In this document: piece by piece, positions 29,250 through 44,080 of the stretch
How the letters are laid out: the number at the start of each line of letters is the position of its first letter
How positions within the stretch are numbered: position 1 is the first letter of the stretch
IMG/VR virus record: IMGVR_UViG_3300041809_000550
Coordinates: 1 to 44,111 of that record
From: a virus
Reading direction: 5' to 3' (one strand)
Length of the DNA: 44,111 bases
Translations under genes and position numbers: made by a program
The notes under the pieces: model-generated
What the model was told of the DNA's origin: nothing
Seen by the model: the letters and a program-made list of their open reading frames with translations, nothing else
The model's database searches: none

Positions 29250-32200
29250 TGCTTTTATTTTTACTCTCTTTATTTTTGATTCAGCCCGCTTCAGCTTTCG
29301 AGGTGAATTCTTGCACAGTAGACACCGCGCTTAGCCTCTCTTACGGAACTCCCAACACTGTCATGGTGCTCAATGGGATTGGAAACGTCGTTTCTAGCCC
29401 AGTCACGACAACTGAGCTTGACTACATCCAAAATGTCACGAGTGATGTACAGGCCCAACTGAACGGCAAACAGAGCACTCTTTCTTTCATCGATTCACTC
29501 GTTCATACAGCGGGAAGTGTTTCACTCGTAGGTGATGCTTCCTCACCGGGTGACTCTGAATATTACGGCACAAATGGCTCTGGCACTAAAGGCTTTTACT
29601 CCTTTCCCCCTAGTGTCGGCTCTGTCACGGCATCTGCTCCGATTGTCAGCTCTGGTGGGCTCAATCCGAATATTACTTGTGATGTTGCATCGGGCTCGCA
29701 AGCGGGATGTCTCTCATCAACTGACTGGACAACTTTCAACGGAAAACAAAGCGCTCTCACTTTTGGAAGCCTCACCGATGCCGGAACGGATGGCATAACC
29801 GTCACTGGCGGTACTGGCTCTGTCATTGGATCAGGCACGTCTCTTTCTCAGCACGTAGCGGATACGACTCACAACGGATATCTTGCAAGCGCTGACTGGA
29901 ATACGTTTAACAGCAAACAAAGTTCTCTCACACCTGGATCTATCACCACATCCACAACGGGTGTATCGATCGGAAGTGGATCAAGCTCCACTGTTGGGCC
30001 TAACGTTACCGTCAACGTTCAAACCGCATCGGGCTCACAGCCGGGCCTTTTGGCAAGTGCTGACTGGACTACGTTCAACAACAAACAAGCCGCTCTTAGT
30101 TTCTCGTCTCCACTCGTGGACACGAGCAACACCGTCAGCTGTAACACGGCATCGGGCTCACAAGCTGGATGTCTCTCATCAACTGACTGGACAACTTTCA
30201 ACGGAAAACAAGCCGCTGGAAACTACATCACCGCATTGACGGGTGATGGCACGGCTTCCGGGCCTGGCTCTGCCGCTCTCACTCTCGCTACCGTCAATAG
30301 CAACACTGGATCTTTCACTAATGCATCGATCACCGTAAACGGCAAGGGACTCATCACGGCGGCGTCAAACGGCACAACTGGAAACCTCACCGATGCGGGC
30401 ACGGATGGAATTACTGTCACGGGTGGAACTGGTGCGGTGCTTGGTTCAGGAACTTCTTTTGCCCAACATGTGGCTGATACAACCCACAACGGTTATCTTG
30501 CCTCTAGCGACTGGAATACTTTCAATGGAAAACAAGCCGCTGGAAACTACATCACTGCACTCACTGGCGATGTGACAGCTTCCGGGCCTGGCTCTGCCGC
30601 CTCAACTCTCGCAACTGTCAATTCCAACGTTGGATCATTCAACATAGCCAACGTCACCGTAAACGCAAAAGGTCTTGTCACTGCGGCATCAGCGTCTTCA
30701 ACAACAGGCTCTGGCAATGTGGTTTTAGCGACTAGCCCCACTCTCGTCACACCAACTCTTGGTGTTGCGACCGGGACTAGCCTTGCTCTTTCAAACACCT
30801 CAAACCCCATTATTGAAGAAATCAACACGGGCGCTCAAAGCTCAGCTGGTGGAGCGGGATTATCTCTTTTTTCCGATCCTGGCGCTGCGATCAGCTCTGG
30901 CTCAAGACTTGGATTTTTAGGCTTAGGTGGATCGTTTGATACTTCTCACACGTTGAACAACACCACAGCTGTTCAAGCTTATGCTACTCAAAACTGGTCT
31001 TCTTCAGCTAAGGGCTCTGAGCTTGTCTTCTCAGTCACCAACAACAGCACGACGGGCCTTCAAACGGCACTTACGCTCAATCAAGATCAAAGCGCTACGT
31101 TTGCAAACACGGTGAACGCGACAACTTTCGTTGGTGCTCTCACCGGAAATGCGAGTACAGCAACGGCTCTTGCTTCAGTTCCTACTGGATGCTCTGCCGG
31201 ACAATACGCTGATTCGATTGCAGCGAGCGGAAATCTGACGTGTGCGCAAGTGAACTACAATCAACTTGCGGGTGTTCTTCCAAACCCAACAGCGACATCT
31301 TTAGGTGGTATTGAATCACTGGCCAGTACCTCTCATGAGTGGATCAACGCGATTTCCACAAGCGGCGTGCCTTCAGCAACTCAGCCAGCCTTCAGCGATA
31401 TTTCTGGCTCTGTGGCAGCAAGCCAACTTCCAAACCCCACTGCAACATCTCTTGGTGGGATTGAATCACTTGCAAGCACTTCTCACGAGTGGATCAATGC
31501 TATTTCGACAAGCGGTGTACCTTCAGCAACTCAGCCCGCCTTCAGTGATATCAGTGGATCGGCAACAGCAAGTCAGCTTCCAACGGCAACGACTTCAGCC
31601 ATTGGTGGTGTTGAGATCATCACTTCAGCAACATCTCACCAGTGGGTTTCGAGCTGGAATAGTTCAGGCGTTCCCCAAACCACCCAGCCCGCTTTTACTG
31701 ACATTAGTGGAAATCTTGCGCTCTCAAGCATTGCTTCAATCGCGACAAATACGATTCTGGGAAACAACACCGGGGGTGGTGCAGCGCCAACAGCATTGAC
31801 GGTTTCTCAAGTCAACACGATGCTTGGAACGCTCTCTAATCCGATGACCACGGCAGGTGACATGATTTATGGTGGATCTTCCGGCACGCCAACGCGCTTA
31901 GCTGCCGGGACATCAGGCCAAGTGCCTATCTCTGCCGGGACATCTGTTGCGATGGGCTCGCTACCTGGAAACTCAACAGCTCTTAAAGCACCTACCGGGA
32001 CAAACTTAACGAGCACCGGAACTCAGACCGGATGGCTCTTCACGATTTCAACAAGCACCACGTGTGCAGTGGGTGACACCTACACCAACAACGGGCACAC
32101 CTATACCGTTCAAGGCGCTCTTTCCGCTCAATCTGGCGCTGTTCTTTGGATGAGCGGCACTGGCGCTACTTCGGGCACTACTCTTTCACGCTCAACTGGA

Positions 32201-32866
32201 TCGGGCACATCTTCCGTCACTTTTTCTGCAACGACTGCAACAGCTACTTATACGACGCCAACAAGTCCTAGCCCGCTTTATTTAAGAATCAACATGATTG
32301 GTGGCGGTGGTGGTGGCTCTGGCTCTGGTAACTCATCCACGATGGGCCCGGGCGGAAACGGCGTAACGACTTATTTTGGCCCAAATATTCTTTCTGCCGG
32401 TGGTGGTGTAGGTGGGCCAGTTAACGGTAACGGCGGAAGCAACTCAAGCGGATCATGCGGGTCTGTCTCACCGTGTATTGCACTTCCTGGTGCTGGTGGC
32501 AGTGGAGCTGCCTTCACCAACTTATCATATACAGGTGCTCCATCTGGTGCCCCCGGTGCAAGTTCACCTCTTGGCGGTGGTGGCGGAACGGGACAAGCCA
32601 GCGCAATTTGGGCGGGACTTGCTGCCCCAGCCAATACTGGTGCCGGTGGTGGTGGCGCGGCTACTGGTAACGGAGCTCCGACCGGGTACGCGGGCTCTGG
32701 CGGTGGAGCTGGCGCATTTATTTTCAACGCTATAATTAGTTCACCAGCGGTAAGTTATCCCTATATCATTGGAAGTGGTGGCTCTGGTGGGAGTGCAGGA
32801 ACTAACGGAGCTGCGGGCGGTGCAGGCGGTTCGGGCTTCATCGGAATTGAAGAACACTATCAGTAA
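29249..32866 (+). CDS. 1205-residue repetitive fibre/adhesin with signal peptide
   Basis: I chose the ATG at 29249, in a TAATG overlap. The protein starts MLLFLLSLFLIQPASAF, a Sec signal peptide with cleavage at ASA-F, then VNSCTVDTALSLSYGT. The body is made of fibre repeats: SSTDWTTFNGKQ / ASADWNTFNSKQ units, DAGTDGITVTGGTG units and a 50-residue unit twice in tandem. The C-terminal about 200 residues are extremely Gly-rich (GGGGGSGSG, GAGGSGA, GSGGSGGSAGTNGAAGGAGG) and end FIGIEEHYQ, like poly-glycine adhesin tips. It is probably the long host-binding fibre. A signal peptide on a fibre is unusual; mosaic adhesins of predatory bacteria look similar. Confidence 0.82.
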   Translation: MLLFLLSLFLIQPASAFEVNSCTVDTALSLSYGTPNTVMVLNGIGNVVSSPVTTTELDYIQNVTSDVQAQLNGKQSTLSFIDSLVHTAGSVSLVGDASSPGDSEYYGTNGSGTKGFYSFPPSVGSVTASAPIVSSGGLNPNITCDVASGSQAGCLSSTDWTTFNGKQSALTFGSLTDAGTDGITVTGGTGSVIGSGTSLSQHVADTTHNGYLASADWNTFNSKQSSLTPGSITTSTTGVSIGSGSSSTVGPNVTVNVQTASGSQPGLLASADWTTFNNKQAALSFSSPLVDTSNTVSCNTASGSQAGCLSSTDWTTFNGKQAAGNYITALTGDGTASGPGSAALTLATVNSNTGSFTNASITVNGKGLITAASNGTTGNLTDAGTDGITVTGGTGAVLGSGTSFAQHVADTTHNGYLASSDWNTFNGKQAAGNYITALTGDVTASGPGSAASTLATVNSNVGSFNIANVTVNAKGLVTAASASSTTGSGNVVLATSPTLVTPTLGVATGTSLALSNTSNPIIEEINTGAQSSAGGAGLSLFSDPGAAISSGSRLGFLGLGGSFDTSHTLNNTTAVQAYATQNWSSSAKGSELVFSVTNNSTTGLQTALTLNQDQSATFANTVNATTFVGALTGNASTATALASVPTGCSAGQYADSIAASGNLTCAQVNYNQLAGVLPNPTATSLGGIESLASTSHEWINAISTSGVPSATQPAFSDISGSVAASQLPNPTATSLGGIESLASTSHEWINAISTSGVPSATQPAFSDISGSATASQLPTATTSAIGGVEIITSATSHQWVSSWNSSGVPQTTQPAFTDISGNLALSSIASIATNTILGNNTGGGAAPTALTVSQVNTMLGTLSNPMTTAGDMIYGGSSGTPTRLAAGTSGQVPISAGTSVAMGSLPGNSTALKAPTGTNLTSTGTQTGWLFTISTSTTCAVGDTYTNNGHTYTVQGALSAQSGAVLWMSGTGATSGTTLSRSTGSGTSSVTFSATTATATYTTPTSPSPLYLRINMIGGGGGGSGSGNSSTMGPGGNGVTTYFGPNILSAGGGVGGPVNGNGGSNSSGSCGSVSPCIALPGAGGSGAAFTNLSYTGAPSGAPGASSPLGGGGGTGQASAIWAGLAAPANTGAGGGGAATGNGAPTGYAGSGGGAGAFIFNAIISSPAVSYPYIIGSGGSGGSAGTNGAAGGAGGSGFIGIEEHYQ
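31283..31582 (+). repeat. Two tandem 50-residue units in the long fibre gene
   Basis: Units at 31283-31432 and 31433-31582 encode nearly the same 50 residues (NPTATSLGGIESLASTSHEW onwards; only two residues near the end differ), but the DNA differs at many third positions. A third, diverged unit follows to about 31710. The pattern indicates an old duplication kept by selection on protein. Confidence 0.75.
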
Positions 32867-32875
32867 AGGGACACC

Positions 32876-33112
32876 ATGAAAGCAAGTCTAGGAGATAAAG
32901 CGTTACTGTGGGGCACAATCGGAAGCTTTGTTTTAACTGGAATTGGTTTTACAGCGTGGCTTTCAAGTACTCACGATTCTGTTGTGAACACCGCACAAGC
33001 TCAAGAGCAATTGAAAGGCAGGGTGCTTAAAAAGCTTGATGACCTTTCAAACAAACTCGATGAGCAAAACACCAGGCTTTCACGCATGGAAGGAAAGCTA
33101 GACAGAAAATGA
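32876..33112 (+). CDS. Holin-like protein with one membrane span and coiled coil
   Basis: The 78-residue product has a hydrophobic segment at about residues 9-29 (LLWGTIGSFVLTGIGFTAWL) and a long Lys/Glu/Leu-rich helix to the end (LKGRVLKKLDDLSNKLDEQN). This layout matches small membrane proteins before lysis enzymes (XhlA-like hemolysins or holin antagonists). The gene overlaps the DUF5675 gene by 4 bp. Lysis role inferred from context. Confidence 0.6.
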   Translation: MKASLGDKALLWGTIGSFVLTGIGFTAWLSSTHDSVVNTAQAQEQLKGRVLKKLDDLSNKLDEQNTRLSRMEGKLDRK

Positions 33113-33510
33113 ATTTCACACTCACCACAAATCAATGCGGGCTTTACGGCGTTTTCGGTGAGATGAAATCCGAAGACGGAAAGTTTATTTTCGCAACGCT
33201 TGAGCACGCCTATCCTTGTGATTCGGGCTGGGCACCGAAAGTGGAGCGTGGAAAGACTTACGAGTGTGTCCGGTACGATTCACCTGATCACGGTTATCCG
33301 GTCTTTGTTTTGAAAAGCGTGCCGGATTTCCAAGGCCAGCCCGTCACCTACATTGAAATTCACATCGGCAACTACAACAAAGATTCTAAGGGCTGCATCC
33401 TACTTGGGCTTAAAAAAGGCACCGGAATGATTGAGGATAGCGGCGAAGCCTTCAAGCAATTTATGGAGCTTCAGAAAGATGTCAACTCTTTCACACTTAC
33501 TGTCGTCTAG
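33109..33510 (+). CDS. DUF5675 protein, candidate lysis enzyme
   Basis: The 133-residue product matches DUF5675: ATLEHAYPCDSGWAPKVERG with KTYECVRYDSP and a conserved IEIHIGNYNKDSKGCILLG (residues 82-100). The His85...Ser93-Lys-Gly-Cys96 arrangement looks like the catalytic His/Cys of YkuD L,D-transpeptidases, but the fold identity is unproven. It sits right after a holin-like gene and no classical endolysin (lysozyme, amidase, peptidase) occurs in the window, so it is the best candidate for the cell-wall enzyme. Inferred. Confidence 0.7.
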   Translation: MNFTLTTNQCGLYGVFGEMKSEDGKFIFATLEHAYPCDSGWAPKVERGKTYECVRYDSPDHGYPVFVLKSVPDFQGQPVTYIEIHIGNYNKDSKGCILLGLKKGTGMIEDSGEAFKQFMELQKDVNSFTLTVV

Positions 33511-33612
33511 TTTCCACTTGACCTTTCACCATCCTGTGTTGAAGTGGTGGTTCTTAAGAGAGATTGCAGGGATAACCTTGCATGTTTGCAAACGTAAAAA
33601 GGAGATAAAATC

Positions 33613-33888
33613 ATGAGTCCAGTTTCTAAGTCTTTTGGCCCTTTCACTCTTTCTGTTACCGACAAAGGCAACGGCGTTTTTGAAGGCGCGGTTTCCCTGA
33701 ACGCAAGCGTTGGCGGTGGCCAGGCCGCTGGTGTCGTTAAGGCAGGCGGAAGCCTGTATGCTGATCTCAGCGCTGAGCAAGTTGCTGAGCTTGGATTTGA
33801 AGAGTTTAACAAAATCCTTCCTGCATCGGTGGTGCCTCTCGCTGAAGCTGGCGAAGCTGCCGCTGAAGCTGAAATCGGAAAGCTCTAA
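33613..33888 (+). CDS. Hypothetical Ala/Gly-rich protein, 91 residues
   Basis: This is a beta-rich protein with a C-terminal Ala/Glu-rich helix (LAEAGEAAAEAEIGKL). It begins MSPVSKSFGPFTLSVTDKGN and contains VSLNASVGGGQAAGVVKAGG. I recognise no family. The ribosome site is strong (AAGGAG). The 100-bp gap before it holds a 10-bp palindrome GTTTGCAAAC at 33584-33593, perhaps an operator. A terminator directly follows. Confidence 0.65.
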   Translation: MSPVSKSFGPFTLSVTDKGNGVFEGAVSLNASVGGGQAAGVVKAGGSLYADLSAEQVAELGFEEFNKILPASVVPLAEAGEAAAEAEIGKL

Positions 33889-33894
33889 CAGGTT

Positions 33895-33924
33895 TGCGGG
33901 GGTTTAAAAGCCCCCGCACTTTTT
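33895..33924 (+). terminator. Intrinsic terminator
   Basis: TGCGGGGG at 33895-33902 pairs with CCCCCGCA at 33911-33918 around loop TTTAAAAG, followed by CTTTTT. This is a strong GC stem plus T-run, a classical intrinsic terminator. The next ORF starts in its T-run, so readthrough or another promoter would be needed. Confidence 0.85.
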
Positions 33925-34305
33925 ATGACCACATCAGCTTACAGGCCACTCACTGACGCCGAAAACGCTTTCAAAATTATCGTGTGGACTCCACTCATTA
34001 AAATGGGTGAAGTGGCTCTTGCGGGCGTTGAAGCGTCCATCCCGGTGCTTGATCTTCCGGTATTTCAAGATCTCGAAGACGATGCAATCAATGCCATTAC
34101 TGATGCGCTCTTCAATCAAATCGTTCTTTTTATCGACGTGACAGCAATCAAGCTCGTCAACGCTGAACTTCAAACCAAGTGGGCTACTGCAAGCGAAGCT
34201 CTGGCCCTCATCGCTCAAGAGCAAGGAGCAAACTCAAGTGCGTATCAAACTGCCCTTCAAGCCGCTGCAAGTGATTTTGCTGCTTTTGTTCACACTGGCC
34301 CTTAG
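33925..34305 (+). CDS. Hypothetical helical protein, 126 residues
   Basis: The product is mostly helical and acidic, with a moderately hydrophobic stretch near 56-78 (DDAINAITDALFNQIVLFID). No family recognised. The ATG lies in the T-run of the preceding terminator and has no ribosome site; ATG at 34003 is an alternative but no better. The gene overlaps the following lipoprotein by 68 bp. Its codon pattern looks coding. Position in the lysis-like region is the only functional hint. Confidence 0.6.
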   Translation: MTTSAYRPLTDAENAFKIIVWTPLIKMGEVALAGVEASIPVLDLPVFQDLEDDAINAITDALFNQIVLFIDVTAIKLVNAELQTKWATASEALALIAQEQGANSSAYQTALQAAASDFAAFVHTGP

Positions 34306-34642
34306 CGCCTGCCAAACGATCACGATCCAAAACCGCACAGCTTGCTTTGTGAATGGTGTGATTAGTCTTGGATCTACTTGCGCCAACACCGTGGGTACTT
34401 CCACAACGACTCAACTCACAACTGAGCAAACGCTTGACGTGCTTGAAGCGCGTCCTGCCGTAAGCCCGCTACCTGCTCACCCACCTGCCGTGTTTCAATC
34501 GGCAGCTGACTACGGTGAAGAAACGGTTAAGCTTGAAACCGCGTGCAGACTCCTAAAAAACGATTGCTCTTATGAGCTTCAATCCACGATCGCCAATCAC
34601 AAAAAGATTTTAGAGCAAGTCCAATCTCTCAAAGCGGAATGA
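34238..34642 (+). CDS. Lipoprotein, possible spanin-like protein
   Basis: From the GTG at 34238 (AAGGAG 10 bases upstream) the 134-residue product has a type II signal peptide: basic RIKLPFK, a hydrophobic LQVILLLLFTLALSAC with lipobox ending at Cys25 or so. The mature part has several more Cys (TACFVNG, STCANT, TACRLLKNDCS) and a C-terminal helix. It overlaps the preceding gene in another frame, as o-spanins often do, but the upstream protein lacks the i-spanin membrane span, so the role is uncertain. Bor-like surface lipoprotein is an alternative. Confidence 0.65.
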   Translation: MRIKLPFKPLQVILLLLFTLALSACQTITIQNRTACFVNGVISLGSTCANTVGTSTTTQLTTEQTLDVLEARPAVSPLPAHPPAVFQSAADYGEETVKLETACRLLKNDCSYELQSTIANHKKILEQVQSLKAE

Positions 34643-34710
34643 AATTTGATCCGTGGCTATTTCTTCTAGCCCTTCTCATGATTTACTTTTGGCTATCCCA
34701 ACACCAATGA
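34639..34710 (+). CDS. 23-residue membrane peptide
   Basis: An ATGA overlap with the lipoprotein stop begins the peptide MKFDPWLFLLALLMIYFWLS plus three residues, nearly all hydrophobic and Trp-rich. It could insert in the inner membrane as a lysis or regulatory peptide. I recognise no family. The stop lies 12 bases before the tRNA-like gene. Existence rests on coupling and composition. Confidence 0.4.
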   Translation: MKFDPWLFLLALLMIYFWLSQHQ

Positions 34711-34722
34711 GACAATGGGAGT

Positions 34723-34803
34723 GGCTGAATAGCTCAGGGGTAGAGCACTCCGTGAGGATGCATAGCACCGGAGGGGTCGGGTGTTCGAATCACTCTTCAG
34801 CCA
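34723..34803 (+). tRNA. tRNA-like gene with 16-nt anticodon loop
   Basis: Acceptor GGCTGAA/TTCAGCC (34723-34729, 34796-34802), D arm GCTC-AGGGGTA-GAGC, anticodon stem CTCCG/CGGAG (34748-34752, 34769-34773), 5-base variable loop and T arm GGGTG-TTCGAAT-CACTC are all well formed. The anticodon loop has 16 bases (34753-34768) instead of 7. A 7-base reading adjacent to the 3' stem (ATAGCAC) would give anticodon AGC, leaving nine extra bases. The acceptor pairing extends two more pairs outward (GT/AC, 34721-34805). No CCA is encoded (CCT follows). It may be a pseudo-tRNA, an interrupted tRNA or a tRNA mimic. Confidence 0.6.
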
Positions 34804-34805
34804 CC

Positions 34806-35195
34806 TTACCAGACAAAGTGCCCTTTACTATTATGCTTCGCCTTTCTCATAGCTTTAAGCCAAAGAGTTGAGCGTTTATTTCTAATGCCACCCCTACCTT
34901 TTCGTTCTCTATCAGCGGCGTTTTGCTTAGGTGTTCCCAGCCAAAAATGACGGGGGTTCATGCACCAGGGGTGATCACAAGAATGGCACACGTGAAGTTT
35001 TCCTGGTGACATCCCACATAGGTGGGCCATGACTCTAGGTGCTCTTATTTGTTTCCTATTTGCCAATCGAGTAACACCGCGACCGAATCTGTCGCGATAA
35101 CCGAGCCAAGGCCAACACTCGTTCAGGCCGCGTCTTTTGATTAAAGCTAAGAAATTCCTTCTTTGAGTCTCGGTTAAAACTATCTTGGTGTGCAT
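34806..35195 (-). CDS. HNH homing-type endonuclease
   Basis: The 129-residue product on the minus strand has an HNH_3-type core: LNECWPWLGYRDRFGRGVTR, then HVCHSCDHPWCMNPRHFWLG and TPKQNAADRERKGRGG, typical of phage free-standing homing nucleases. The ribosome site GGGGAAA precedes ATG at 35195. Its stop codon abuts the 3' end of the tRNA-like gene, three bases after the discriminator base, and it lies against the direction of its neighbours, suggesting a mobile insertion. Confidence 0.85.
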   Translation of the reverse strand: MHTKIVLTETQRRNFLALIKRRGLNECWPWLGYRDRFGRGVTRLANRKQIRAPRVMAHLCGMSPGKLHVCHSCDHPWCMNPRHFWLGTPKQNAADRERKGRGGIRNKRSTLWLKAMRKAKHNSKGHFVW

Positions 35196-35259
35196 TCGTT
35201 TCCCCTACCATACAAAAATAATTTGCCAAATCGGTAAGCGTCTGCATATTGTTTTCACC

Positions 35260-36348
35260 ATGCAAGGATGGCAAGTCACCGAACCAGGGCAGAGAAGTCC
35301 GTTGGCTCTTACTGAGTCACATAACCCACACCAAGAAATGCACCGCGTACCCGCAAACCTTGATGGTTTCTGGGTGATCACCGTGCTATCAAATCCGATC
35401 AGATACAAGCGAAGATACGAGCTTTACTGGCGTTTCAAAGAGATGTGCGAGCAGGCCGGTGCGAAACTCATCACCGTTGAGCAAGCCTTTGGTGATCGCC
35501 CGTTCATGGTGACAAAGCCCAACAATCCTTTTCACCTGCAAGTGCGTTCCGTTGAAGAGCTATGGCACAAGGAAAACATGATCAACATGGGTATCCGTCA
35601 CGCCTGTGCGATTGCCCCTGGCCTTGGGCTCAAGGTGAATGAAGTGGCTTGGGTGGATGCTGACTGTAGGCCGTCTCGCGCTTATTGCGATTGGTTTGAG
35701 GAAACCTGGCATCAGCTTCAGCATTATGAGTTTGTCCAGATGTGGGAAAACCTCATTGATCTTGACACCAATTTCAACCCGATCGGCGAAGCTCAACCTT
35801 CTTTCATGGCAAACTACGTGAAATACGGCACGCCTAACCCCGAAGAGTTTCGGAAGATCGAAACCGAGTATGGTGTCACTAAGACCGGCAAAGTCGTCTT
35901 CGGGCGTCCTGGCCTTGCTTGGGCTGCCAATCTTGATGCGATCAACAAGGTGGGTGGGCTCATTGACTACGCCATCCTTGGTGCCGGTGACTGGTACATG
36001 GCTCACGGCCTAGTTGGAACTTTGGTTTCAGCTCGCAGTGAATACGCTGCCGGGCCTTACATGAGTAAGATGCTTGAATGGCAAGCCCGTGCTCAACGCT
36101 GGATCAAGCGCGATGTGGGTTTTGTTTCTGGTGTCGTATATCACGATTTCCACGGCAGAAAAGCTTTACGCTTTTACGGAACGCGCGGCAAGATTTTATC
36201 CGGGTGCAAGTACAATCCTGAAACCGATATTAAGTATGATCAGCACGGGATGCTCATGCTTGAGACTTGGGATGAAAGACAGATTCAACTGCGTGATAAA
36301 ATCCGTGGATACTTCAGAGCACGTAACGAAGATTCGATTGATCTCTAA
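35260..36348 (+). CDS. GT-A-type glycosyltransferase-like protein
   Basis: From the ATG at 35260 the product has 362 residues. It has a GT-A-like start (FWVITVLSNPIRYKRRYELY at about 45) and a DxD motif WVDADC at 131-136, followed by a helix and a region GLAWAANLDAINKVGGLIDY and ILGAGDWYMA. Phages use such enzymes to modify DNA bases, host glycans or virion proteins; no base-modifying partner is evident. The start has no clear ribosome site; ATG at 35338 is an alternative. It is divergent from the HNH gene and convergent with the minus genes. Confidence 0.72.
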   Translation: MQGWQVTEPGQRSPLALTESHNPHQEMHRVPANLDGFWVITVLSNPIRYKRRYELYWRFKEMCEQAGAKLITVEQAFGDRPFMVTKPNNPFHLQVRSVEELWHKENMINMGIRHACAIAPGLGLKVNEVAWVDADCRPSRAYCDWFEETWHQLQHYEFVQMWENLIDLDTNFNPIGEAQPSFMANYVKYGTPNPEEFRKIETEYGVTKTGKVVFGRPGLAWAANLDAINKVGGLIDYAILGAGDWYMAHGLVGTLVSARSEYAAGPYMSKMLEWQARAQRWIKRDVGFVSGVVYHDFHGRKALRFYGTRGKILSGCKYNPETDIKYDQHGMLMLETWDERQIQLRDKIRGYFRARNEDSIDL

Positions 36349-36602
36349 ACGCCTACTTCTTCAGTCTTATGCCCACACGCTTTGCAATCTGTGTAGGTGG
36401 GTGAAAAACTTACTGAGCCACACGGATCACAGAAGAATCGTCTTAGTGGCTCTTTAGGTTTAGGCGCGGGGTGATTCTCTTCAAACTGTGTCTTCACATC
36501 GTGAAGACTCCACTTTCGATGCGCATAACAGAAGTGGTACTTCGGATCGATTACAACACGACAAGACTTCACCATGCAGCGATTCTTCTTTTGTCGGGCC
36601 AT
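36345..36602 (-). CDS. Small zinc-finger protein
   Basis: From ATG at 36602 the product has 85 residues with Cys pairs: C9 and C14 with a later CYAH, then CDPCGS and CKACGH near the end. The last two pairs form a typical zinc ribbon. It is the last gene of the minus block, four bases after the polymerase stop. Its stop overlaps the opposing glycosyltransferase stop by 4 bp. Function unknown, perhaps a polymerase accessory. Confidence 0.7.
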   Translation of the reverse strand: MARQKKNRCMVKSCRVVIDPKYHFCYAHRKWSLHDVKTQFEENHPAPKPKEPLRRFFCDPCGSVSFSPTYTDCKACGHKTEEVGV

Positions 36603-36606
36603 TCCG

Positions 36607-38613
36607 TTAGCCTTTCTTGTATCTAGGTCCGCACCATCCTTCAGCCGTGATAGGCGCACCTTTTGCCCAAGCGGGCAGCTTTGTCATGAGTTTGACATAT
36701 TCATTGACGCTGCCAAGCCCTTTCTTTTTCTCAGCTAGTCCTTCATCGTGAACGGACAAAAGAAACTTGTAGCCCGCGTTTTCAATGTTGATAATCCCAT
36801 TCACCATGAGATCACGCGAAATGCCCTGAACGATGTGATTGGTGAAGATGCCACCCCAAATCGTTGTCTCACGCCATTGGTGAAGCTCAATTGTCCAGTA
36901 ACGAATCTCAGGCACCATGCGTCCACCAGCGAGTTGCTTTTGAGTGATGCGCGGTTTGAAGTAGCGAAGACGGCGACCGCCGGGCAGTTTGATGTTGAGC
37001 CACTTATCAGATACGTAGGCCACAACTTTGGTGACTCTGTAGCGTTTGCCAGGATTGAGAATCGCTTGAATACAAGCGTCTTCAATCGCTTTCCAAAACG
37101 TTGGGATAGGATGGTGGAGCTTTCGATAAGTGTAGACTGCTTTTTTGGCCATGTCGGGCGTGACTTGCTTCACGCCTTTTTGATGACAGTTCTTTAGAAA
37201 TTTTGCCCAGCCAAGCCCATACTGACAGCCCAAGACCGATTCTTTCCCAACGAATCTCTCGAGAGAATTCTTGGTGACTTTGTGAAGTGGGATACCGAAA
37301 GCTTCCGAAGCCATCTCTTCATAAAGTTTTCTATTCTCTTCAAAGGCCCGAATGCCTTCAACGTGCTCAGCAATCCAAAACGCGATGCGAGCTTCAACTG
37401 CTGCAAAGTCAGCGCAATAAAGATCATGGCCAATGCTTGCGATGATCATTCCCCGGATGATGGACACCAGTACGTCCATCACTTTGGACTTACCGTAGCG
37501 TTTGGCCAGGCCCTTTCGCCCACGCTTGAGTGCAATCCTAATTGCTTTGTCAGAATCAAAGTAGTCTTGCCCTGGCTCTTTCACCGTTGGACGCGGAAAG
37601 TTTTGCGGCTGAACTCGCTTACCACTCCACCGAGCTGTTGGAATGGTGCCACAATAAAGTAAAAGCCCTCTTGCTCTGTGATCGCTGCCGGCTGCTGCAA
37701 GAATGGTGTGGTACTTCGCTACAGATGTCTTTGAGCCACCTTGACGATACTCAAGCATCCGTCTCACGTCATCGGTGAGATCATCACCAAGAAGTCTGTC
37801 GCGGATCGTGGGCGCTTGAAGGTTTGCCATCTTAGCGCCACGAGCATTGATCCAGTTTAAAACTCTTTCTCGCTGAGCGGGACTCTGGATCTTTCCTTGT
37901 GAGAGAATCTGAACGCGCTTGGTGATGTCTCTCATCTCTTCGTTGACGAGCACGAGAATCTTTTTCACCGTTGGGATGTCAAAGAGCACGCCGCGATCGT
38001 TGATCTTTTGATCCAGTTCCCAAACCGATTGCTCAAAGTCCGATAGATCAGGCAGAGCGTCGTGTAACTCGCGTTCAGCTTTCACGTCCGTCAGACAGTA
38101 GCGGTAGATGTCTCTCAAATCTTTCTTGTCACTCCACCAGGGTGATGGGTTGTGCTTTGAGGGCTTACGCGGCTTTGAATATTTCTTGATCAGTTTATGA
38201 CCATGCGCGTCTTTTTGAGTCTTAAGCTCAAGGGCCTTTGCAGCCCCTTCTAATTTCCTAGGTAGCGAGCACATGGCTGCCTTGGCAGCAAGGCAACGCC
38301 ACCGGCTTATGGGTAAGGTAGCAAGCCGCTCTTTCTGTTCAATGGTGAGGCAGCTATAGCGGGGTAAGGTGTATTTAGTGATGGCCCGCTCGAAGGCAGC
38401 GTTGTGAGCAATCAACGTTCCGCGCTTGAAACACTCCCAAAGATCATCAGGCATCGGAGCGCGTTCAGGTATCCAGATTTTTGGCTCTGCGTCATTGACT
38501 TGATAGCCTAAGCAAAAGATCGACGTAGTTGGATCTTTCGCGTATTCTATTGCGCCCGACAAATCCAAAGGCTTCGCACTTCGAGTTTCATAGTCAAGTA
38601 CCGCTTCAAGCAT
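36607..38613 (-). CDS. polA-like: Family A DNA polymerase with 3'-5' exonuclease
   Basis: From ATG at 38613 (GGA ribosome site) the 668-residue protein has a DnaQ-like exonuclease: DYE at residues 7-9, HNAAF at 70-74 and a later YCLTDVKAE. Polymerase motifs are motif A Asp402 in YCADFAAVEAR, motif B Lys457 to Tyr465 (KESVLGCQYG) and motif C His622-Asp623-Glu624. It lacks a 5'-3' exonuclease domain. It should copy the phage genome together with the PrimPol, SNF2-like helicase and ssDNA-binding protein. Family A assignment is firm. Confidence 0.95.
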   Translation of the reverse strand: MLEAVLDYETRSAKPLDLSGAIEYAKDPTTSIFCLGYQVNDAEPKIWIPERAPMPDDLWECFKRGTLIAHNAAFERAITKYTLPRYSCLTIEQKERLATLPISRWRCLAAKAAMCSLPRKLEGAAKALELKTQKDAHGHKLIKKYSKPRKPSKHNPSPWWSDKKDLRDIYRYCLTDVKAERELHDALPDLSDFEQSVWELDQKINDRGVLFDIPTVKKILVLVNEEMRDITKRVQILSQGKIQSPAQRERVLNWINARGAKMANLQAPTIRDRLLGDDLTDDVRRMLEYRQGGSKTSVAKYHTILAAAGSDHRARGLLLYCGTIPTARWSGKRVQPQNFPRPTVKEPGQDYFDSDKAIRIALKRGRKGLAKRYGKSKVMDVLVSIIRGMIIASIGHDLYCADFAAVEARIAFWIAEHVEGIRAFEENRKLYEEMASEAFGIPLHKVTKNSLERFVGKESVLGCQYGLGWAKFLKNCHQKGVKQVTPDMAKKAVYTYRKLHHPIPTFWKAIEDACIQAILNPGKRYRVTKVVAYVSDKWLNIKLPGGRRLRYFKPRITQKQLAGGRMVPEIRYWTIELHQWRETTIWGGIFTNHIVQGISRDLMVNGIINIENAGYKFLLSVHDEGLAEKKKGLGSVNEYVKLMTKLPAWAKGAPITAEGWCGPRYKKG

Positions 38614-38615
38614 GA

Positions 38616-39005
38616 TCAATCCTTGAAGTTTGGATCTCGCACAAACATGCGCCACACGTGATGAGTTTCTTTTCCGAGAACGTCTCGCGTGGTCATGGCT
38701 ATAAGCTGTTGCCTATAAACTCTTCTCTGAAGAGTACAGGTATCGTGCTCAACAAGATACTCAGCACCATCAGCAGGGACATCTTCTCTTAAGCAGAGAT
38801 GGCCATCAGCTTCCACTTGAATAGCTTGGTTATGAAAAATCTCAGTTATTTCTTTGCCTCTCACATTGATTTTTCTCTCAGTGAGTTTGGAAGGCATAAA
38901 CATCTGATCACGTGAAACACCTTTGCCGTGACAGAAATCGCCGTCATCAGTTATTAGATGATCGTTGAAAGGTTTTCTGCAAAGCCTGCACAAGTCCTTA
39001 CTCAT
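38616..39005 (-). CDS. Hypothetical protein with CxxC, 129 residues
   Basis: The product begins MSKDLCRLCRKPFNDHLITD, with a CxxC and a downstream CHGKG that could form a zinc site, then a mixed beta region. I recognise no family. It overlaps the next upstream gene by ATGA and its stop lies two bases before the polymerase start, so it is part of the polymerase operon. Confidence 0.65.
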   Translation of the reverse strand: MSKDLCRLCRKPFNDHLITDDGDFCHGKGVSRDQMFMPSKLTERKINVRGKEITEIFHNQAIQVEADGHLCLREDVPADGAEYLVEHDTCTLQRRVYRQQLIAMTTRDVLGKETHHVWRMFVRDPNFKD

Positions 39006-39193
39006 CTATCCCACTTCCGAATGTCGGCAATTTGTTTTGGTGAGAACGTCAGGCCATTGTCATACATCTTGAGAAGATTCTCAGGGAAAGCTTTGTTTTC
39101 CATCTTCTCGCACATCAGCTCAATGAGATAGCGCTGATCAGATTTTGTCAGCCCCACCCACCAATTCAGTAACTGTTGATCCGTGTACTCCAT
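39002..39193 (-). CDS. Hypothetical small protein, 63 residues
   Basis: The product is helical (MEYTDQQLLNWWVGLTKSDQ, then LIELMCEKMENKAFPENLLK) with no recognised family. It opens the short polymerase operon after a terminator on the same strand, so a promoter should lie at about 39194-39210 on the minus strand, though I could not see a convincing one. Coupled by ATGA to the next gene. Confidence 0.6.
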   Translation of the reverse strand: MEYTDQQLLNWWVGLTKSDQRYLIELMCEKMENKAFPENLLKMYDNGLTFSPKQIADIRKWDR

Positions 39194-39207
39194 AAAGTCC
39201 TCTCAAT

Positions 39208-39246
39208 AAAAAAGCCCAAGCCGGGGCCATAAGTTCCAGCTTGGGC
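39208..39246 (-). terminator. Intrinsic terminator on minus strand
   Basis: On the minus strand GCCCAAGC (39239-39246 read reversed) pairs with GCTTGGGC (39214-39221) and is followed by TTTTTT (39208-39213). It would end transcription of the ssDNA-binding protein gene before the 63-residue gene. Confidence 0.8.
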
Positions 39247-39283
39247 CAAGGCCAGCTAACACGGGCGGAAAGCTGGCGCTATC

Positions 39284-40036
39284 TTAGTAGTCTTCATCCT
39301 CGTCGTCTTCATCAGCGGGTGGACGCTTTTTGCCTTTCTTCTTAGGAGCTGGCTCATCGTCTTCATCCTCGTCATCAGACTCATCTTCATCCGAATCGTC
39401 ATCCTCGTCTTCATCGACTGGCGGGCGTTTCTTTTTCTTCGAGCGCGGAAGATCCTCGTCTTCATCTTCTTGCTCTTCGCCGTCAGACTCATCCGCATCT
39501 TCATCACTGTCTTCGAGTCCAAAGAGTTGTTTAGCACTCTTTCCGCCACCGAAGCCCGCAAGTTTTTCCTTACTGGTGTCGATCATCACGCCTTGAAGAT
39601 AAATCGACATGCCTTCTTCGCCTTCATTATCCCAAGGTGAAATGCAAACTGCGACTTTGGCAAACATGCCACCCTTAACGAGTGCGGCTGAGAACGCTTT
39701 GCCTTTCGGATCAATCACGGGCACAGGCTGTTGAGTGGAGACAGAGACATACATCTTGTCTTCATACGTCTTCTGATCTTCACGCTCATTGCCGTCTTGG
39801 ATGAAGCGTTTCTTAGCGCCATCAGGCCACTCAGTCTTATCATCACCCCACGTCTTCACACGCACGGTGTTGATCTTCTTCTTAAGCACCGCAAGTTGCG
39901 GATCATCGTTGTCAAACAAGATGTCCGTGCGATAGTACGTCTTTCCTTTGAAGGGCTTCGGTTGATGAAGATCGGGATAGCTCAGCACTCCATAGAGCAC
40001 CATCTCGATTCGGTGAAACTTCTTTTTCTTAGCCAT
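39284..40036 (-). CDS. DUF2815 ssDNA-binding protein with long acidic tail
   Basis: The first about 165 residues of this 250-residue protein follow the DUF2815 single-strand-binding pattern: VLYGVLSYPDLHQPKPFKGK, then YYRTDILFDNDDPQL and SAALVKGGMFAKVAVCISPW. The last about 75 residues are nearly all Asp/Glu with Lys/Pro patches (DEDEDDDSDEDESDDEDEDD), a much longer acidic tail than usual SSBs. Such tails recruit replication partners. GGAAA ribosome site. A weak minus terminator lies upstream. Confidence 0.83.
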   Translation of the reverse strand: MAKKKKFHRIEMVLYGVLSYPDLHQPKPFKGKTYYRTDILFDNDDPQLAVLKKKINTVRVKTWGDDKTEWPDGAKKRFIQDGNEREDQKTYEDKMYVSVSTQQPVPVIDPKGKAFSAALVKGGMFAKVAVCISPWDNEGEEGMSIYLQGVMIDTSKEKLAGFGGGKSAKQLFGLEDSDEDADESDGEEQEDEDEDLPRSKKKKRPPVDEDEDDDSDEDESDDEDEDDEPAPKKKGKKRPPADEDDEDEDY

Positions 40037-40071
40037 GATTTTCCTTTCGTTCGTTTGGTTGACTGTCGTTC

Positions 40072-40093
40072 AAAAATCTCTTTCAATAAGAGA
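40072..40093 (-). terminator. Weak hairpin with T-run on minus strand
   Basis: On the minus strand TCTCTT (40088-40093) pairs with AAGAGA (40077-40082), followed by TTTTT (40072-40076). A short AU-rich stem makes it a weak intrinsic terminator or attenuator between the DUF2800 nuclease gene and the SSB-like gene. Confidence 0.3.
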
Positions 40094-40127
40094 AATTGAT
40101 TCTCAGTAAAAGTAACGGTGTAAGTTC

Positions 40128-40925
40128 TTATGATTCAAACCTCGCAAGTAGCTTTTGCTCTTTGACTTCCATCTGAAGCGGGCACTTTGATCTTGCTGGG
40201 CAAAACCAACACCAGCTGTCGTTTTTCACAAGCGGTGCATCTTTCTTCTTGGTGGCCTTTGCTCCACTCCTTAACATCCTGCCTGCACGCTCAAGATCTT
40301 CATGAGTAGCTTTCCAAGTTCTTACATGCCCACGACTGTGGGGGGCATTCGGCTGGATGATAGAAATTTTAGGCCGCGAAAATTCCCACTCAAACTCATC
40401 AGCTGCGGCAACAGCGTAGTAAAGCCCTTGCGTGTTCCCTTCGGGTTCAACGCTTTTGGTGCCGTTCTTATAGTCCATCACGTGAAGCACACCATAGGGC
40501 TGATGCAAAATGATGTCTGATGTCCCGAAACCAACGCCTGTTAACTCAACCTTTTTTTCAGTGTAAAGATCAACGGGCCTGCCGCTTTTCCACTCAATCT
40601 CGGCTTTCTCTTTCCATACTGTCTTGGCAGCAAAGAGTGCGTTGCCCAACATTGCCTTGTCGTATTCAATAGTAGCTAGAAACTTTTCACCTTCATCCGC
40701 TCCAAGAAGAGCATGCCATCTCGAATTTTCTAAGATGAATTGCAAAAGCGTGTGAGTGTTGGTGCCCCGGACCGATGCATCACTTTCAACTGAAGCAATA
40801 CCTTCGCTCAGTCTTATAGATCCGGGGCAGCCAAGCCAGCGCTCTGAGCCACTTGCTGATAGTACAGCGTGGTCATCAGCTCGCTTTTCTTTAACGTATT
40901 TTTTGAAGAGCTTTTTGAGATTCAT
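40128..40925 (-). CDS. DUF2800 PD-(D/E)XK nuclease (Cas4/AddB-like)
   Basis: The 265-residue product has ASGSERWLGCPGSIRLSEGI at the start, a nuclease core GFGTSDIILHQ followed by LHVMDYKNGTKSVEPEGNTQ, and the C-terminal Cys cluster WCWFCPARSKCPLQMEV, which with an N-terminal Cys would hold an Fe-S cluster as in Cas4/AddB-like nucleases. It should act in recombination or degradation of host DNA. ATGA overlap with the upstream gene. Confidence 0.82.
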   Translation of the reverse strand: MNLKKLFKKYVKEKRADDHAVLSASGSERWLGCPGSIRLSEGIASVESDASVRGTNTHTLLQFILENSRWHALLGADEGEKFLATIEYDKAMLGNALFAAKTVWKEKAEIEWKSGRPVDLYTEKKVELTGVGFGTSDIILHQPYGVLHVMDYKNGTKSVEPEGNTQGLYYAVAAADEFEWEFSRPKISIIQPNAPHSRGHVRTWKATHEDLERAGRMLRSGAKATKKKDAPLVKNDSWCWFCPARSKCPLQMEVKEQKLLARFES

Positions 40926-41293
40926 AATTGATCAGGTGGCGGAGTAGATCCATCGATCACGGACATTGTTGGGGCTTTCGACTCATCAAGCTCAAGTGCC
41001 GTATCAGTCGGAAGTGGTGTTGCATCGGCTGCCGGTGGCCCTTGCTTTTTCATCTCAGCAATAATGGCTTGTTGAGCGCGTTTGAAGCGCTCTGGAAAGC
41101 CAGGATTGTTTCGCAAGATCACACCCGCTTTCATGAAAGCGTTGGCCACCATGTTTTTGTTTTTGATGAGCGTTCCGGTTTGAACTTCCATCATGAGAAC
41201 AGCAAGAGAGAACACGGTTTGATCGTCTCTCATGATTTGAATCTGCTCGTCAGTTAAAGTCAGTCTGTCTTTTGGTGTAATCGGTCTAATCAT
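40922..41293 (-). CDS. Hypothetical protein, 123 residues
   Basis: The product begins MIRPITPKDRLTLTDEQIQI and has FSLAVLMMEVQTGTLIKNKN; it ends with Pro/Ala/Thr-rich, disordered residues. I recognise no family. It is coupled by ATGA at both ends, between zinc protein and DUF2800 genes. Confidence 0.65.
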   Translation of the reverse strand: MIRPITPKDRLTLTDEQIQIMRDDQTVFSLAVLMMEVQTGTLIKNKNMVANAFMKAGVILRNNPGFPERFKRAQQAIIAEMKKQGPPAADATPLPTDTALELDESKAPTMSVIDGSTPPPDQL

Positions 41294-41553
41294 GCTCGTC
41301 CTCTTTCTTGTCTTGGTTCAGCGGGTAGGGCTCGTGCGGGCCTGTGCGGACCTTCTCGCCCATGAAGATAATCTAAGAAGTTGTCTCCGTGCTCTGGGCA
41401 AAGGTCCGTCACTTGCGCTTGCTCTTTTTCAGTCGGCATCATTTGGCGAGCTGCAAACTGTTTCCATCCTGGTGGGTAACTTCCGCTCACCGGAACGTCC
41501 ACGCTCTTTGAGCAGTAGTTGCAATGAAATCTAACCATCTCAGTGCGTGCCAT
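41290..41553 (-). CDS. Small zinc-binding protein
   Basis: From ATG at 41553 the product has about 87 residues. It contains FHCNYCSKSVDVPV near the start and LCPEHGDNFLDYLHGREG later, giving Cys/His zinc ligands. The C-terminus is Arg/Pro-rich. It overlaps the preceding 59-residue ORF by 14 bp, supporting this start rather than an upstream one. No family recognised. Confidence 0.62.
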   Translation of the reverse strand: MARTEMVRFHCNYCSKSVDVPVSGSYPPGWKQFAARQMMPTEKEQAQVTDLCPEHGDNFLDYLHGREGPHRPARALPAEPRQERGRA

Positions 41554-41719
41554 CGTCTTCATCCTCTTCAACGTATGGGCCTATTGTCACTGCTATCTGC
41601 TTAGGGCCTTTCTCAGTTGTGCAATCAAACACATAAGTAACGCGTTTGTTTTCGCTTGCGGCAAGCCCGACACCTTCAAATATCGCTTTCAAAATTACTT
41701 CTGTATCTGATGCTTCCAT
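41540..41719 (-). CDS. Small acidic protein, 59 residues
   Basis: On the minus strand AGGA precedes ATG at 41719 and the ORF ends at 41540. It begins MEASDTEVILKAIFEGVGLA, has RVTYVFDCTTEKGP, and ends YVEEDEDDGTH. It fills the gap between a hairpin and the zinc protein gene, overlapping its start. I recognise no family. Confidence 0.6.
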   Translation of the reverse strand: MEASDTEVILKAIFEGVGLAASENKRVTYVFDCTTEKGPKQIAVTIGPYVEEDEDDGTH

Positions 41720-41734
41720 AGTTTTCCTTTAAAG

Positions 41735-41765
41735 AAGGGGCTGAGATTCCCCCGCTCAGCCCCTT
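41735..41765 (-). terminator. Hairpin with T-rich flank on minus strand
   Basis: AAGGGGCTGAG at 41735-41745 pairs with CTCAGCCCCTT at 41755-41765 (11 bp, loop ATTCCCCCG). On the minus strand the stem is followed by CTTTAAAGG, a modest U-tract; it likely ends or attenuates the SNF2-like operon 30 bases after the acidic protein gene. Confidence 0.6.
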
Positions 41766-41794
41766 TCGGTTTTTCCCTCAACGGGCACCGAACT

Positions 41795-42346
41795 TTATTT
41801 CTTTTTCTTCGCTGCCTTAATCTTGGCCATGACTTTGCGGTAGACGGGTTCCCAGTACTTTTCGTTGTGCTTGGCTGCAAGCTCCTTGGGCGACTTGATG
41901 TTGAACGTGCTCAAAATTGCACGGGCCTGGTCAGGATGCTTTTCACCGTACTTGTTGAGCGCCGCTCTCACGTCTTGAAACGAGACTGATGGCTCATCAT
42001 CTTCATCAGATTCATCTTCGCTCTCGTCAGAGTCAGTGTCTTCATCCTCGTCTTCGGACTCATCAGCGTCAGTATCTTTGGTTGATTTCTTAGACTTTGT
42101 TTTCTTTGCTGGCGCTTCATCTTCTTCCTCGTCATCAAGATCGTCTTCGCTCAGCTCGCTTGATCCGAAGTCCTCGTCTTCATCAGCGTCAACTGTTTTA
42201 AGGGGTTTCTTCTTTCCCTTTTTGCCGAGAGTTGACACGTCGATTGCGTCAGTCTCTTCACCTGATTCAAAAAGAGCCAGGTGAGCTTTCAGACCTTTCG
42301 CAAGGTCCGCTTTTGTTTTTCCTTCTAAATGCACCGTAAGTTTCAT
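41795..42346 (-). CDS. Acidic Lys/Asp-rich protein, 183 residues
   Basis: The first about 35 residues are MKLTVHLEGKTKADLAKGLK followed by AHLALFESGEETDAI, a small domain. Residues about 45-120 are an extreme Asp/Glu/Lys/Ser stretch. The C-terminal part is a basic helical domain (QDVRAALNKYGEKHPDQARA, then ELAAKHNEKYWEPVYRKVMA). Function unknown; may bind the helicase or DNA. GAGGGAA ribosome site; it follows the helicase gene by 7 bases. Confidence 0.62.
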   Translation of the reverse strand: MKLTVHLEGKTKADLAKGLKAHLALFESGEETDAIDVSTLGKKGKKKPLKTVDADEDEDFGSSELSEDDLDDEEEDEAPAKKTKSKKSTKDTDADESEDEDEDTDSDESEDESDEDDEPSVSFQDVRAALNKYGEKHPDQARAILSTFNIKSPKELAAKHNEKYWEPVYRKVMAKIKAAKKKK

Positions 42347-42353
42347 CGTTCCC

Positions 42354-43976
42354 TCAGTTCATTACTGTTTGGATGTTTTCTTCTTTGCCTAAAGCCCGAT
42401 GCAACATCCTCTCATCGAGACTATTTCTTAAAACCAAATAGATGCAGTAAACGTGTTTCTCTTGTGAGATGCGGTGGATGCGATCTTCCATCTGCTCATT
42501 GGTGCCAGGTGTCCACTCAGGCTCAACACTGATAAAGATCGGTGCCTTTGTGAGAGTGTTGCCCAAGCCCATCGCAAGAGTGTTTCCCACCATGACACGG
42601 CGAGATTCTTTCGTTTGAAAGAGCCTTACCGCTTCCGCTTTGTCAGCGGCACTCATTCCACCTTGGATCTTAAGAGCGCCATAGTCTTTCAAAAGATGCT
42701 TGTGAAGAAAGTTCACCGTTTCGATGTGGTAGGCCGCCACCACAATCTTCTCGCCAGTCTCATCTAACTTGTCTTTGATGAAGCGCAAAGCCGGAAGCTG
42801 TTTCACTTCACCCACTTCACGGCGATAGCGAGCAATGTCGCCTAAATTATAATTCTCACCAATCAAGTCTTCCAATTCATGATTGGTGAGAATTTCCTTC
42901 TCAAGCGCTTTGATACCTATGCCCGGTTCGTTCAAGAATATAATCTGACGGGTCTTTGGCCCAAGCTCTTTGAGACAGTTTTTCTTTAGATGCCTAACCG
43001 TAAACTTTCTTCGCAGCTCTTTTCGGAGTTGCTTGAGATTTGAAGTTCCTTGAAGGTTGCGGTTAACAATGGCTCGTTGTCCCTCATAACGAGTGATTGA
43101 CTTACCACCACAAAAATCTTTCCAGTATTCCTCAAGACTCCGGTGAAGGATTGATTCAGGTGCGAGACGAGAGAGCACTGGGTACAACTCGATTGGCCTA
43201 CCGTTCGGGATAGGTGTACCGGACAACAAAACCGTTCTTTCCGCAAGGGCTGTGATGCCATCTTCTTTCTCGTCTCCTACTAAAGCTTTAGTTCTCTGAG
43301 CGTCGTCAGTTTTAAATCGGTGGGCTTCATCAACAATGAGCCATTTGAAGGGTGCATGTCTCTTCAGTAAAGATCGAATAGCGGGGCTAGTGAGAAGAGA
43401 ATCAGGCAAAATAAGAATATCAGCGCTTGCATCACTGTCACCGCTTTCAACGATAGAAAAAGTTGGGCTCGTAAGCTGTATCCACTGATGGGGCTTTGAG
43501 CGACCGTGATTGATGTGAGCCGCGCCGAGAACTTTGATGTTGAGCCACGTCTTCAGTTCACTGAGCCAGTTATATCGAAGATAAGGAGGGCACGTGATGA
43601 GCGTCTTGCCCGGTGATGAGTTGACAGCGATGATAGCCGTAGCAGTTTTGCCAAGGCCAGCTTCATCCGCAACATAACTTGGTGTCCGCGTCAACACGTG
43701 CCACGCGCTTTCGACCTGCCATGATCTAGGCGCAAGATGATCAGGATAAATTAAAAACTCAGGCGGCGTGAGATCGGTGATGAAGTAATTTTTCAATTTT
43801 CGTTCAGCACTGCCATCAGCATACCGCCTGAGAAGCCGGGCCTTTGCATGGCTTCGAGTGACCCAGCGAAGGGTATCACTCTCGAAACTCAGCCCGGCTT
43901 TCATCGCTTCATCACGCTCCACACCGCAAGACGCCGCGAAATAATATTTTGAGTTGAGATAACTCAACGTGCCCAT
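42354..43976 (-). CDS. SNF2-type superfamily 2 helicase
   Basis: From ATG at 43976 (GGGG site) the 540-residue protein has motif I AGLGKT at 106-111, DEAH at 216-219 and SGTP at 252-255, plus a C-terminal QMEDRIHRISQ motif VI-like region. It fits the phage SNF2/SSL2-like helicase group (SMARCAL1-like). It is the first gene of the leftward early block and faces the XRE gene across the divergent control region, so it is probably expressed early and repressible. It may remodel forks or assist recombination. Confidence 0.88.
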   Translation of the reverse strand: MGTLSYLNSKYYFAASCGVERDEAMKAGLSFESDTLRWVTRSHAKARLLRRYADGSAERKLKNYFITDLTPPEFLIYPDHLAPRSWQVESAWHVLTRTPSYVADEAGLGKTATAIIAVNSSPGKTLITCPPYLRYNWLSELKTWLNIKVLGAAHINHGRSKPHQWIQLTSPTFSIVESGDSDASADILILPDSLLTSPAIRSLLKRHAPFKWLIVDEAHRFKTDDAQRTKALVGDEKEDGITALAERTVLLSGTPIPNGRPIELYPVLSRLAPESILHRSLEEYWKDFCGGKSITRYEGQRAIVNRNLQGTSNLKQLRKELRRKFTVRHLKKNCLKELGPKTRQIIFLNEPGIGIKALEKEILTNHELEDLIGENYNLGDIARYRREVGEVKQLPALRFIKDKLDETGEKIVVAAYHIETVNFLHKHLLKDYGALKIQGGMSAADKAEAVRLFQTKESRRVMVGNTLAMGLGNTLTKAPIFISVEPEWTPGTNEQMEDRIHRISQEKHVYCIYLVLRNSLDERMLHRALGKEENIQTVMN

Positions 43977-44080
43977 GTTTGCCCCACACACTTAGATTCA
44001 GTCAGTGAGGTGGAGGCTAGATCGAGTCGTTTCGCTTTGCAATATTTTTTTGCAATGTGATCTATCTTTTTTTCTGACTG
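43977..44080. promoter_or_regulatory. Divergent control region (left half)
   Basis: This non-coding stretch joins 1-58 across the contig ends. It has the operator-like TTCAGTCAGTGAGGTGGA at 43997-44014, a repeat of TTTGCAAT at 44036-44043 and 44049-44056, and a T-run. CCCCACACA at 43982-43990 mirrors TGTGTGGGG at 43-51; both are the ribosome sites of the divergent genes. The inverted arrangement suggests a two-way repressor switch. I see no strong promoter match on either strand. Confidence 0.5.

Follow-up and report, generated by a model that had tools for sequence, protein, structure and literature searches.

What purpose can a tRNA-shaped gene serve in a phage when its anticodon loop holds 16 nt instead of 7? 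This question is raised by a locus in a 44,111-base IMG/VR virus record that encodes a terminase, a portal protein, a family A DNA polymerase, helicases and an exonuclease; the whole of this stretch is referred to here as the window. An earlier note on this DNA had pointed to a tRNA-like gene next to an HNH endonuclease gene and had offered three ideas: an interrupted tRNA, a decoy for host anticodon nucleases, or the scar of a homing target. It is considered here to be quite likely that the gene produces a tRNA-like RNA that is under selection for something other than decoding.

The tRNA-like gene and its surroundings

A full tRNA cloverleaf with a 16-nt anticodon loop is present in the window, far beyond what can be expected by chance. 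The earlier note had claimed this structure from the letters, and the Infernal check that it had asked for bears it out, with a score of 51.9 bits against RF00005 (gathering threshold 29; E 1.4e-10 in 301 bases). The acceptor stem is paired at all seven positions (34723-34729 GGCTGAA with 34796-34802 TTCAGCC). It is followed by TA, the D arm GCTC-AGGGGTA-GAGC, with GG in its loop, and A26; the variable loop is GGGTC, and the T arm GGGTG-TTCGAAT-CACTC precedes the discriminator A34803. The gene thus has the cloverleaf of a canonical tRNA, with a 7-bp acceptor, D arm and T arm, but not its 7-nt loop with U33 and a purine at 37, as the loop is 16 nt in the window and 18 nt in a sister phage (L011). 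CCA is not encoded, as had also been claimed, and the letters are ACC and then T. The start of the gene is at 34723, not at 34715. The HNH stop codon, which does lie beside the discriminator, occupies 34806-34808 and is separated from it by two bases. The coordinates of the locus are collected in Table 1.

Table 1. Features at and around the tRNA-like gene (positions in the window)
Feature	Position	Strand	Basis or remark
Lipoprotein-like gene	34238..34642	+	Rz1-like by appearance, no family match; marks the syntenic site in three lineages
23-codon hydrophobic ORF, conserved	34639..34710	+	Window MKFDPWLFLLALLMIYFWLSQHQ, L011 MKFDLWWLILATLMICFWLSQHQ
tRNA-like gene, acceptor to discriminator, 81 nt	34723..34803	+	RF00005 51.9 bits, ARAGORN, letters read
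Anticodon arm, stem CTCCG/CGGAG (5/5 pairs)	34748..34773	+	Letters read
Enlarged 16-nt anticodon loop TGAGGATGCATAGCAC	34753..34768	within + strand tRNA-like gene	Infernal and letters read
Stretch present in the window, missing from L011 (HNH insertion, about 410 nt)	34804..35213		Left edge known to within a few bases
Free-standing HNH endonuclease gene, 129 aa	34806..35195	-	PHROG 1872 E 3.9e-17, 826 E 2e-13
Downstream gene, no assigned function	35260..36348	+	Synteny anchor; 92% identical in L011

Such genes are easily missed. A fast whole-window Rfam scan at gathering thresholds with default filters did not list the 51.9-bit tRNA that a scan of a short stretch recovered, which suggests that enlarged tRNAs may be under-annotated. 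ARAGORN without introns misnames the gene as a strained tRNA-His, and with introns it is called tRNA-Ala(AGC) with a 9-nt insert. The family reported for the gene was not tRNA-Sec (RF01852, gathering 47 bits), and no second tRNA was found by ARAGORN in the 44,111-base record. A class II reading with a long variable arm was tried and rejected, as an anticodon arm of normal length pairs at 2/5 positions in the window and 3/5 in L011, against 5/5 for the enlarged arm. No inner hairpin was detected in the loop, which folds no better than its shuffles in the window (z +0.45), and the same holds for L011 (row L008; z -1.1). As a single strand, the window gene prefers other structures by folding energy (cloverleaf -26.1 kcal/mol against a minimum of -32.4 kcal/mol), and comparable values were obtained for L011 (-26.0 against -34.0 kcal/mol). 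Unmodified tRNAs often fail to prefer the cloverleaf by energy alone, but the energies lend no support to it here.

Upstream, the 23-codon ORF overlaps the stop of the lipoprotein-like gene and ends just before the tRNA-like gene; it is perhaps a small membrane peptide of the lysis cassette. The downstream ORF comprises 387 codons, with coding from about 35260. Scans for promoters and terminators near the tRNA-like gene gave 3 and 1 matches, respectively, where 1.1 and 1.2 are expected by chance. For positions 30000-44111, the rightmost third of the window, no near match was found in 50,697 phage records, and direct patterns for the window tRNA gave no match in IMG/VR or in genome contigs.

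Relatives at the same site and selection on the fold

In two IMG/VR contigs (L008/L011 and L009/L012), the downstream gene is present with 92% identity to that of the window. Both carry a tRNA-like gene in the same place, with letters that are identical between them. In this sister phage, the 18-nt loop is closed by the stem CCACA/TGTGG, the score against RF00005 is 51.6 bits, and the HNH gene is absent. The third lineage, L010, is more distant (its polymerase is 62-63% identical to that of the window) and also has no HNH gene at the site. Its tRNA-like gene directly follows the same lipoprotein-like gene. It can be folded into a cloverleaf in which GCCCGTG/CACGGGC forms the acceptor, the D and T stems have 5 bp each and an anticodon-like arm carries a loop of about 16 nt; these stems were placed by eye, and the anticodon stem, chosen for best pairing, has a G-A mismatch. 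ARAGORN called no tRNA at the L010 site, and the scores are low (18.6 bits as tRNA and 19.3 bits as tRNA-Sec). CCA is unencoded in all three lineages, and their loops share only TGA near the start.

The evidence from orthologues comes from these three lineages, and in it the fold has been kept while the letters have changed. Between the window and L011, 19 of the 42 stem bases differ and 20 of the 21 pairs are kept; for L010, the corresponding counts are 20/42 and 20/21. In a neutral simulation, in which the same number of changes was placed randomly and the stem sites were taken as independent and equally mutable, the mean number of pairs kept was 9.9 for L011 and 9.6 for L010, and the observed value was reached in 0 of 20,000 runs in each case. 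Nine pairs have changed on both sides between the window and L011 and are still paired; the acceptor holds four of these, the anticodon stem three and the T stem two. The broken pairs are one T-stem pair in L011 and the anticodon-stem mismatch in L010, and the D arm and the T loop are maintained across the comparison. The letters of the tRNA also change faster than the neighbouring genes: between the window and L011, 52/81 positions are identical in the tRNA, compared with 384/500 in the 500 bases upstream and 890/1089 in the downstream gene.

Since nearly all stem pairs are kept although almost half of the stem bases differ, the gene is not a decaying pseudogene. The low fold score of L010 and the HNH gene that adjoins the window gene might suggest a decaying tRNA or a homing scar, but this reading is strongly disfavoured and quite improbable, given the outcome of the simulation and the enlarged loops of relatives that have no HNH gene. 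According to the earlier note, relatives without the HNH gene and with a normal 7-nt loop would point to a gene damaged by insertion. The opposite is seen in L011 and L010, and the idea of a homing-target scar is not borne out. Because the enlarged loop occurs without the HNH gene, the arrival of this gene and the size of the loop are separate events.

The HNH protein matches HNH family profiles, and its gene is absent from the otherwise homologous site of L011, where similarity to the window resumes at AAAAATAATTTGCC after a gap of about 34804 to 35213. Against Pfam PF05551 the protein scores 21 bits, under the cut-off of 27, and its nearest IMG/VR relatives are 51% identical or less. From this comparison, the most fitting reading is that a mobile, free-standing endonuclease gene arrived separately beside the tRNA-like gene; its loss from L011 is another possibility. 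ARAGORN found no tRNA beside the relatives of the HNH gene (L002-L007), and there is thus no sign of a preference for tRNA genes in this family. A second HNH gene is located at 2795-3175, close to where the record begins on the left and upstream of the small terminase gene.

Decoding and the wider class of enlarged phage tRNAs

Archaeal tRNA introns, too, add letters to the anticodon loop of a cloverleaf that is normal in other respects. A decoding tRNA with a short intron, cut out by some enzyme, could be proposed, as ARAGORN accepts an insert of 9 or 11 nt that leaves U33. However, the implied amino acid differs between the orthologues (Ala-AGC in the window and Gly-UCC in L011), and no anticodon is shared, and hence conserved, among the window, L011 and L010. 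If the insert is taken out, the window loop alone can be read as ATAGCAC; in L010, the final seven bases of the loop, AACAACC, have no U33. In addition, the archaeal splicing endonuclease is not known from bacteria.

The same question was put to a wider set of elements, obtained by searching IMG/VR with patterns in which the gap between the consensus D and T arms is longer than a normal anticodon arm. These scans fix the consensus D and T letters, and the counts are minimum numbers that cannot be read as frequencies. At least 109 distinct enlarged-arm sequences were found, and 105 were sorted after four nested matches had been dropped. Among these 105 listed, the outer anticodon stem is paired at 5/5 positions in 42, at 4/5 in 33 and not at all in 22, while a normal arm is possible in 5 and clear in 3; the 3 clear cases, with a normal arm and a long variable region, and the 5 possible ones were left out. 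At least 61 of the 75 stemmed elements form a core with at least 6 acceptor pairs, 4 T-stem pairs and 4 outer anticodon-stem pairs, whereas 44 of the 105 do not have all of these. Of the 61 core elements listed, 49 have a fully paired acceptor (7/7), and the loops range from 9 to 40 nt. An inner hairpin was considered as a common motif and rejected, as the loop folds better than mononucleotide shuffles (z below -2) in only 20 of the 61 listed, for example in the long hairpins of L333, L218 and L298, and the loops of the window and L011 are not significant.

As a control for introns, the same pattern was applied to bacterial and archaeal genome contigs, where the matches listed are mostly archaeal by title, with some bacterial ones. 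In these archaeal-dominated matches, U33 and R37 are present together in 58 of the 66 listed with a 5/5 stem, compared with 6 of the 42 listed viral enlarged tRNAs with a 5/5 stem. In tRNAs of normal length, both bases are found in 18/18 viral and 5/5 genome cases. When an insert was allowed at any loop position, 12 of the 38 viral loops listed could be restored to U33/R37, against 10.8 in shuffles. Removal of an insert thus does not restore N-U33-NNN-R37-N beyond the shuffled level in the class, and the phage elements, taken together, are no ordinary tRNAs with introns. The suggestion of an interrupted tRNA in the earlier note finds no backing here, as no shared anticodon is restored in the three relatives either, and an intron-bearing decoding tRNA is rated improbable. 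Enlarged anticodon loops of 8-9 nt can shift the reading frame, so that decoding with an unusually large loop, by frameshifting or by reading multi-base codons, could also be imagined. This is the least probable of the explanations considered, since loops of 16-18 nt are far larger and have only the TGA near their start in common, and the class loops of 9-40 nt include some that are closed by long hairpins. The window gene probably does not decode.

The class members occur in varied surroundings. No other tRNA was found in 33 of the 60 class loci listed, and other members lie in tRNA arrays. No shared partner was detected among 104 flanking ORFs (the 112 nearest less 13 left out, plus 5 second-nearest). 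HNH endonucleases are the most frequent flanking kind, with at most three members per family among the best 25 of 108 families, and the same 25 families contain no integrase. A repeated defence family was not found either in the best 25 of 30, except for an HNH-type ZorE with two members.

In a similarity search against cultured phages, one of four class queries was matched, and the Streptomyces phage AbbeyMikolon (NC_047904.1) carries an enlarged tRNA, annotated as tRNA-OTHER (the L356 element). Like the window gene, it has an enlarged anticodon arm (22-nt loop, outer stem 4/5), which its annotation leaves unexplained; unlike the window gene, it belongs to a phage of an actinobacterial host, lies in a cluster of four tRNAs and has a dissimilar anticodon arm. 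Integrases often use tRNA genes, and one is encoded close to the enlarged tRNA of AbbeyMikolon, so that a remnant of an attachment site, or another DNA-level element that copies a tRNA by chance, was also considered. An attachment site would keep part of a tRNA sequence, whereas the window gene is a complete cloverleaf that diverges through compensatory changes, and no integrase was found among 20 window proteins scanned against PHROGs; this explanation is highly improbable.

Two further groups were observed. L275 and L296 form a subfamily of enlarged phage tRNAs with the common loop letters AAACGG...TCGAAA...CTACCTAA, in which the outer and inner stems have changed and yet remain paired. In five Chryseobacterium genomes (L427, L441, L445, L457 and L460), a tRNA-like gene has an enlarged anticodon arm with a nearly identical insert, CACTTTCCGC...ACAAAGTTCCTAT, and a similar insert is present in Epilithonimonas (L479). 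This gene is possibly a conserved cellular counterpart.

Possible roles of the tRNA-shaped RNA

A tRNA body that is kept while the target loop is altered is what is found in the window gene. Judged from its sequence, conservation of the acceptor, elbow and anticodon stem together with a freed loop is the look that would be expected of a decoy for a tRNA-gripping enzyme, or of a tRNA that survives anticodon nucleases. The decoy idea of the earlier note thus agrees with the anatomy. Titration of a host tRNA-acting enzyme, for which the selected, non-decoding RNA would serve as decoy or sponge, is the leading candidate role and is put forward tentatively. The tRNA-like gene would be transcribed together with the late + strand genes, and the RNA would be excised by RNase P and 3' trimming and receive its CCA from the host. 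A stable tRNA-like RNA, barred from decoding, would then accumulate and titrate a host enzyme that grips the acceptor, elbow and anticodon stem. A candidate target would be a tRNA-cleaving or tRNA-modifying defence effector, to which the RNA would offer a grip without the normal target loop. The adjoining HNH gene would be a separate mobile endonuclease gene.

The main rival to a decoy, which fits the same facts, is an RNA-processing signal: the gene could punctuate the transcript by folding into a structure that RNase P and RNase Z cut, after the lysis cassette and ahead of the following gene, and in this way set the mRNA ends. RNase P requires mainly the acceptor and T arm, and a free loop sequence would be predicted, as the anticodon arm would drift because it is irrelevant to cutting. 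The position of the gene is consistent with such a signal, since it directly follows the lipoprotein-like gene in three lineages and, in L011, lies where two + strand genes leave little space between them. On the other hand, the D arm and the anticodon stem are also kept, the latter with three double changes in five pairs, and many class members lie in tRNA arrays or at other sites. RNA punctuation is considered unlikely but well worth keeping in mind.

The decoy role can be compared with known systems. Escape from anticodon nucleases has been proposed as the reason why phage tRNAs alter their anticodon loops (van den Berg et al. 2023, PMC10264068). The window gene resembles these tRNAs, as far as the available part of that paper describes them, in being a phage tRNA gene with changes in the anticodon loop and a proposed tie to tRNA-cleaving defence. 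In that part, the changes are loop mutations in tRNAs that are meant to stay useful, with no mention of insertion or loop size, whereas the window loop is more than doubled and the gene probably cannot decode. In phage T6, the free-standing homing endonuclease SegB lies beside a phage tRNA-Tyr and amplifies that tRNA against Septu, and a decoy or supplement role was suggested for the tRNA (Chihara et al. 2026, PMC13096335). A free-standing, putative homing endonuclease gene also adjoins the tRNA-like gene in the window. In the accessible portion of that report, the T6 tRNA is a normal tRNA-Tyr, unlike the window gene, and a kinship between SegB and the window HNH protein is not established.

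While it is well known that phages carry tRNA genes, a selected, non-decoding variant with an enlarged anticodon arm is apparently undescribed as a class; no description was found in a search that covered open-licence literature. It is conceivable, if doubtful, that anticodon-less tRNA mimics, carried by many unrelated phages, form a widespread and so far overlooked class of RNAs for counter-defence (or host takeover) that titrate tRNA-acting enzymes, with the window gene as one of its solitary members. The purpose of phage tRNAs is an old question that is usually argued from anticodons and codon usage. Where the tRNA body is under selection and the anticodon is discarded, codon supply cannot explain the gene. 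The enlarged-arm genes therefore offer a clean set for testing whether phages put the shape of a tRNA itself to use, for example against tRNA-targeting defence.
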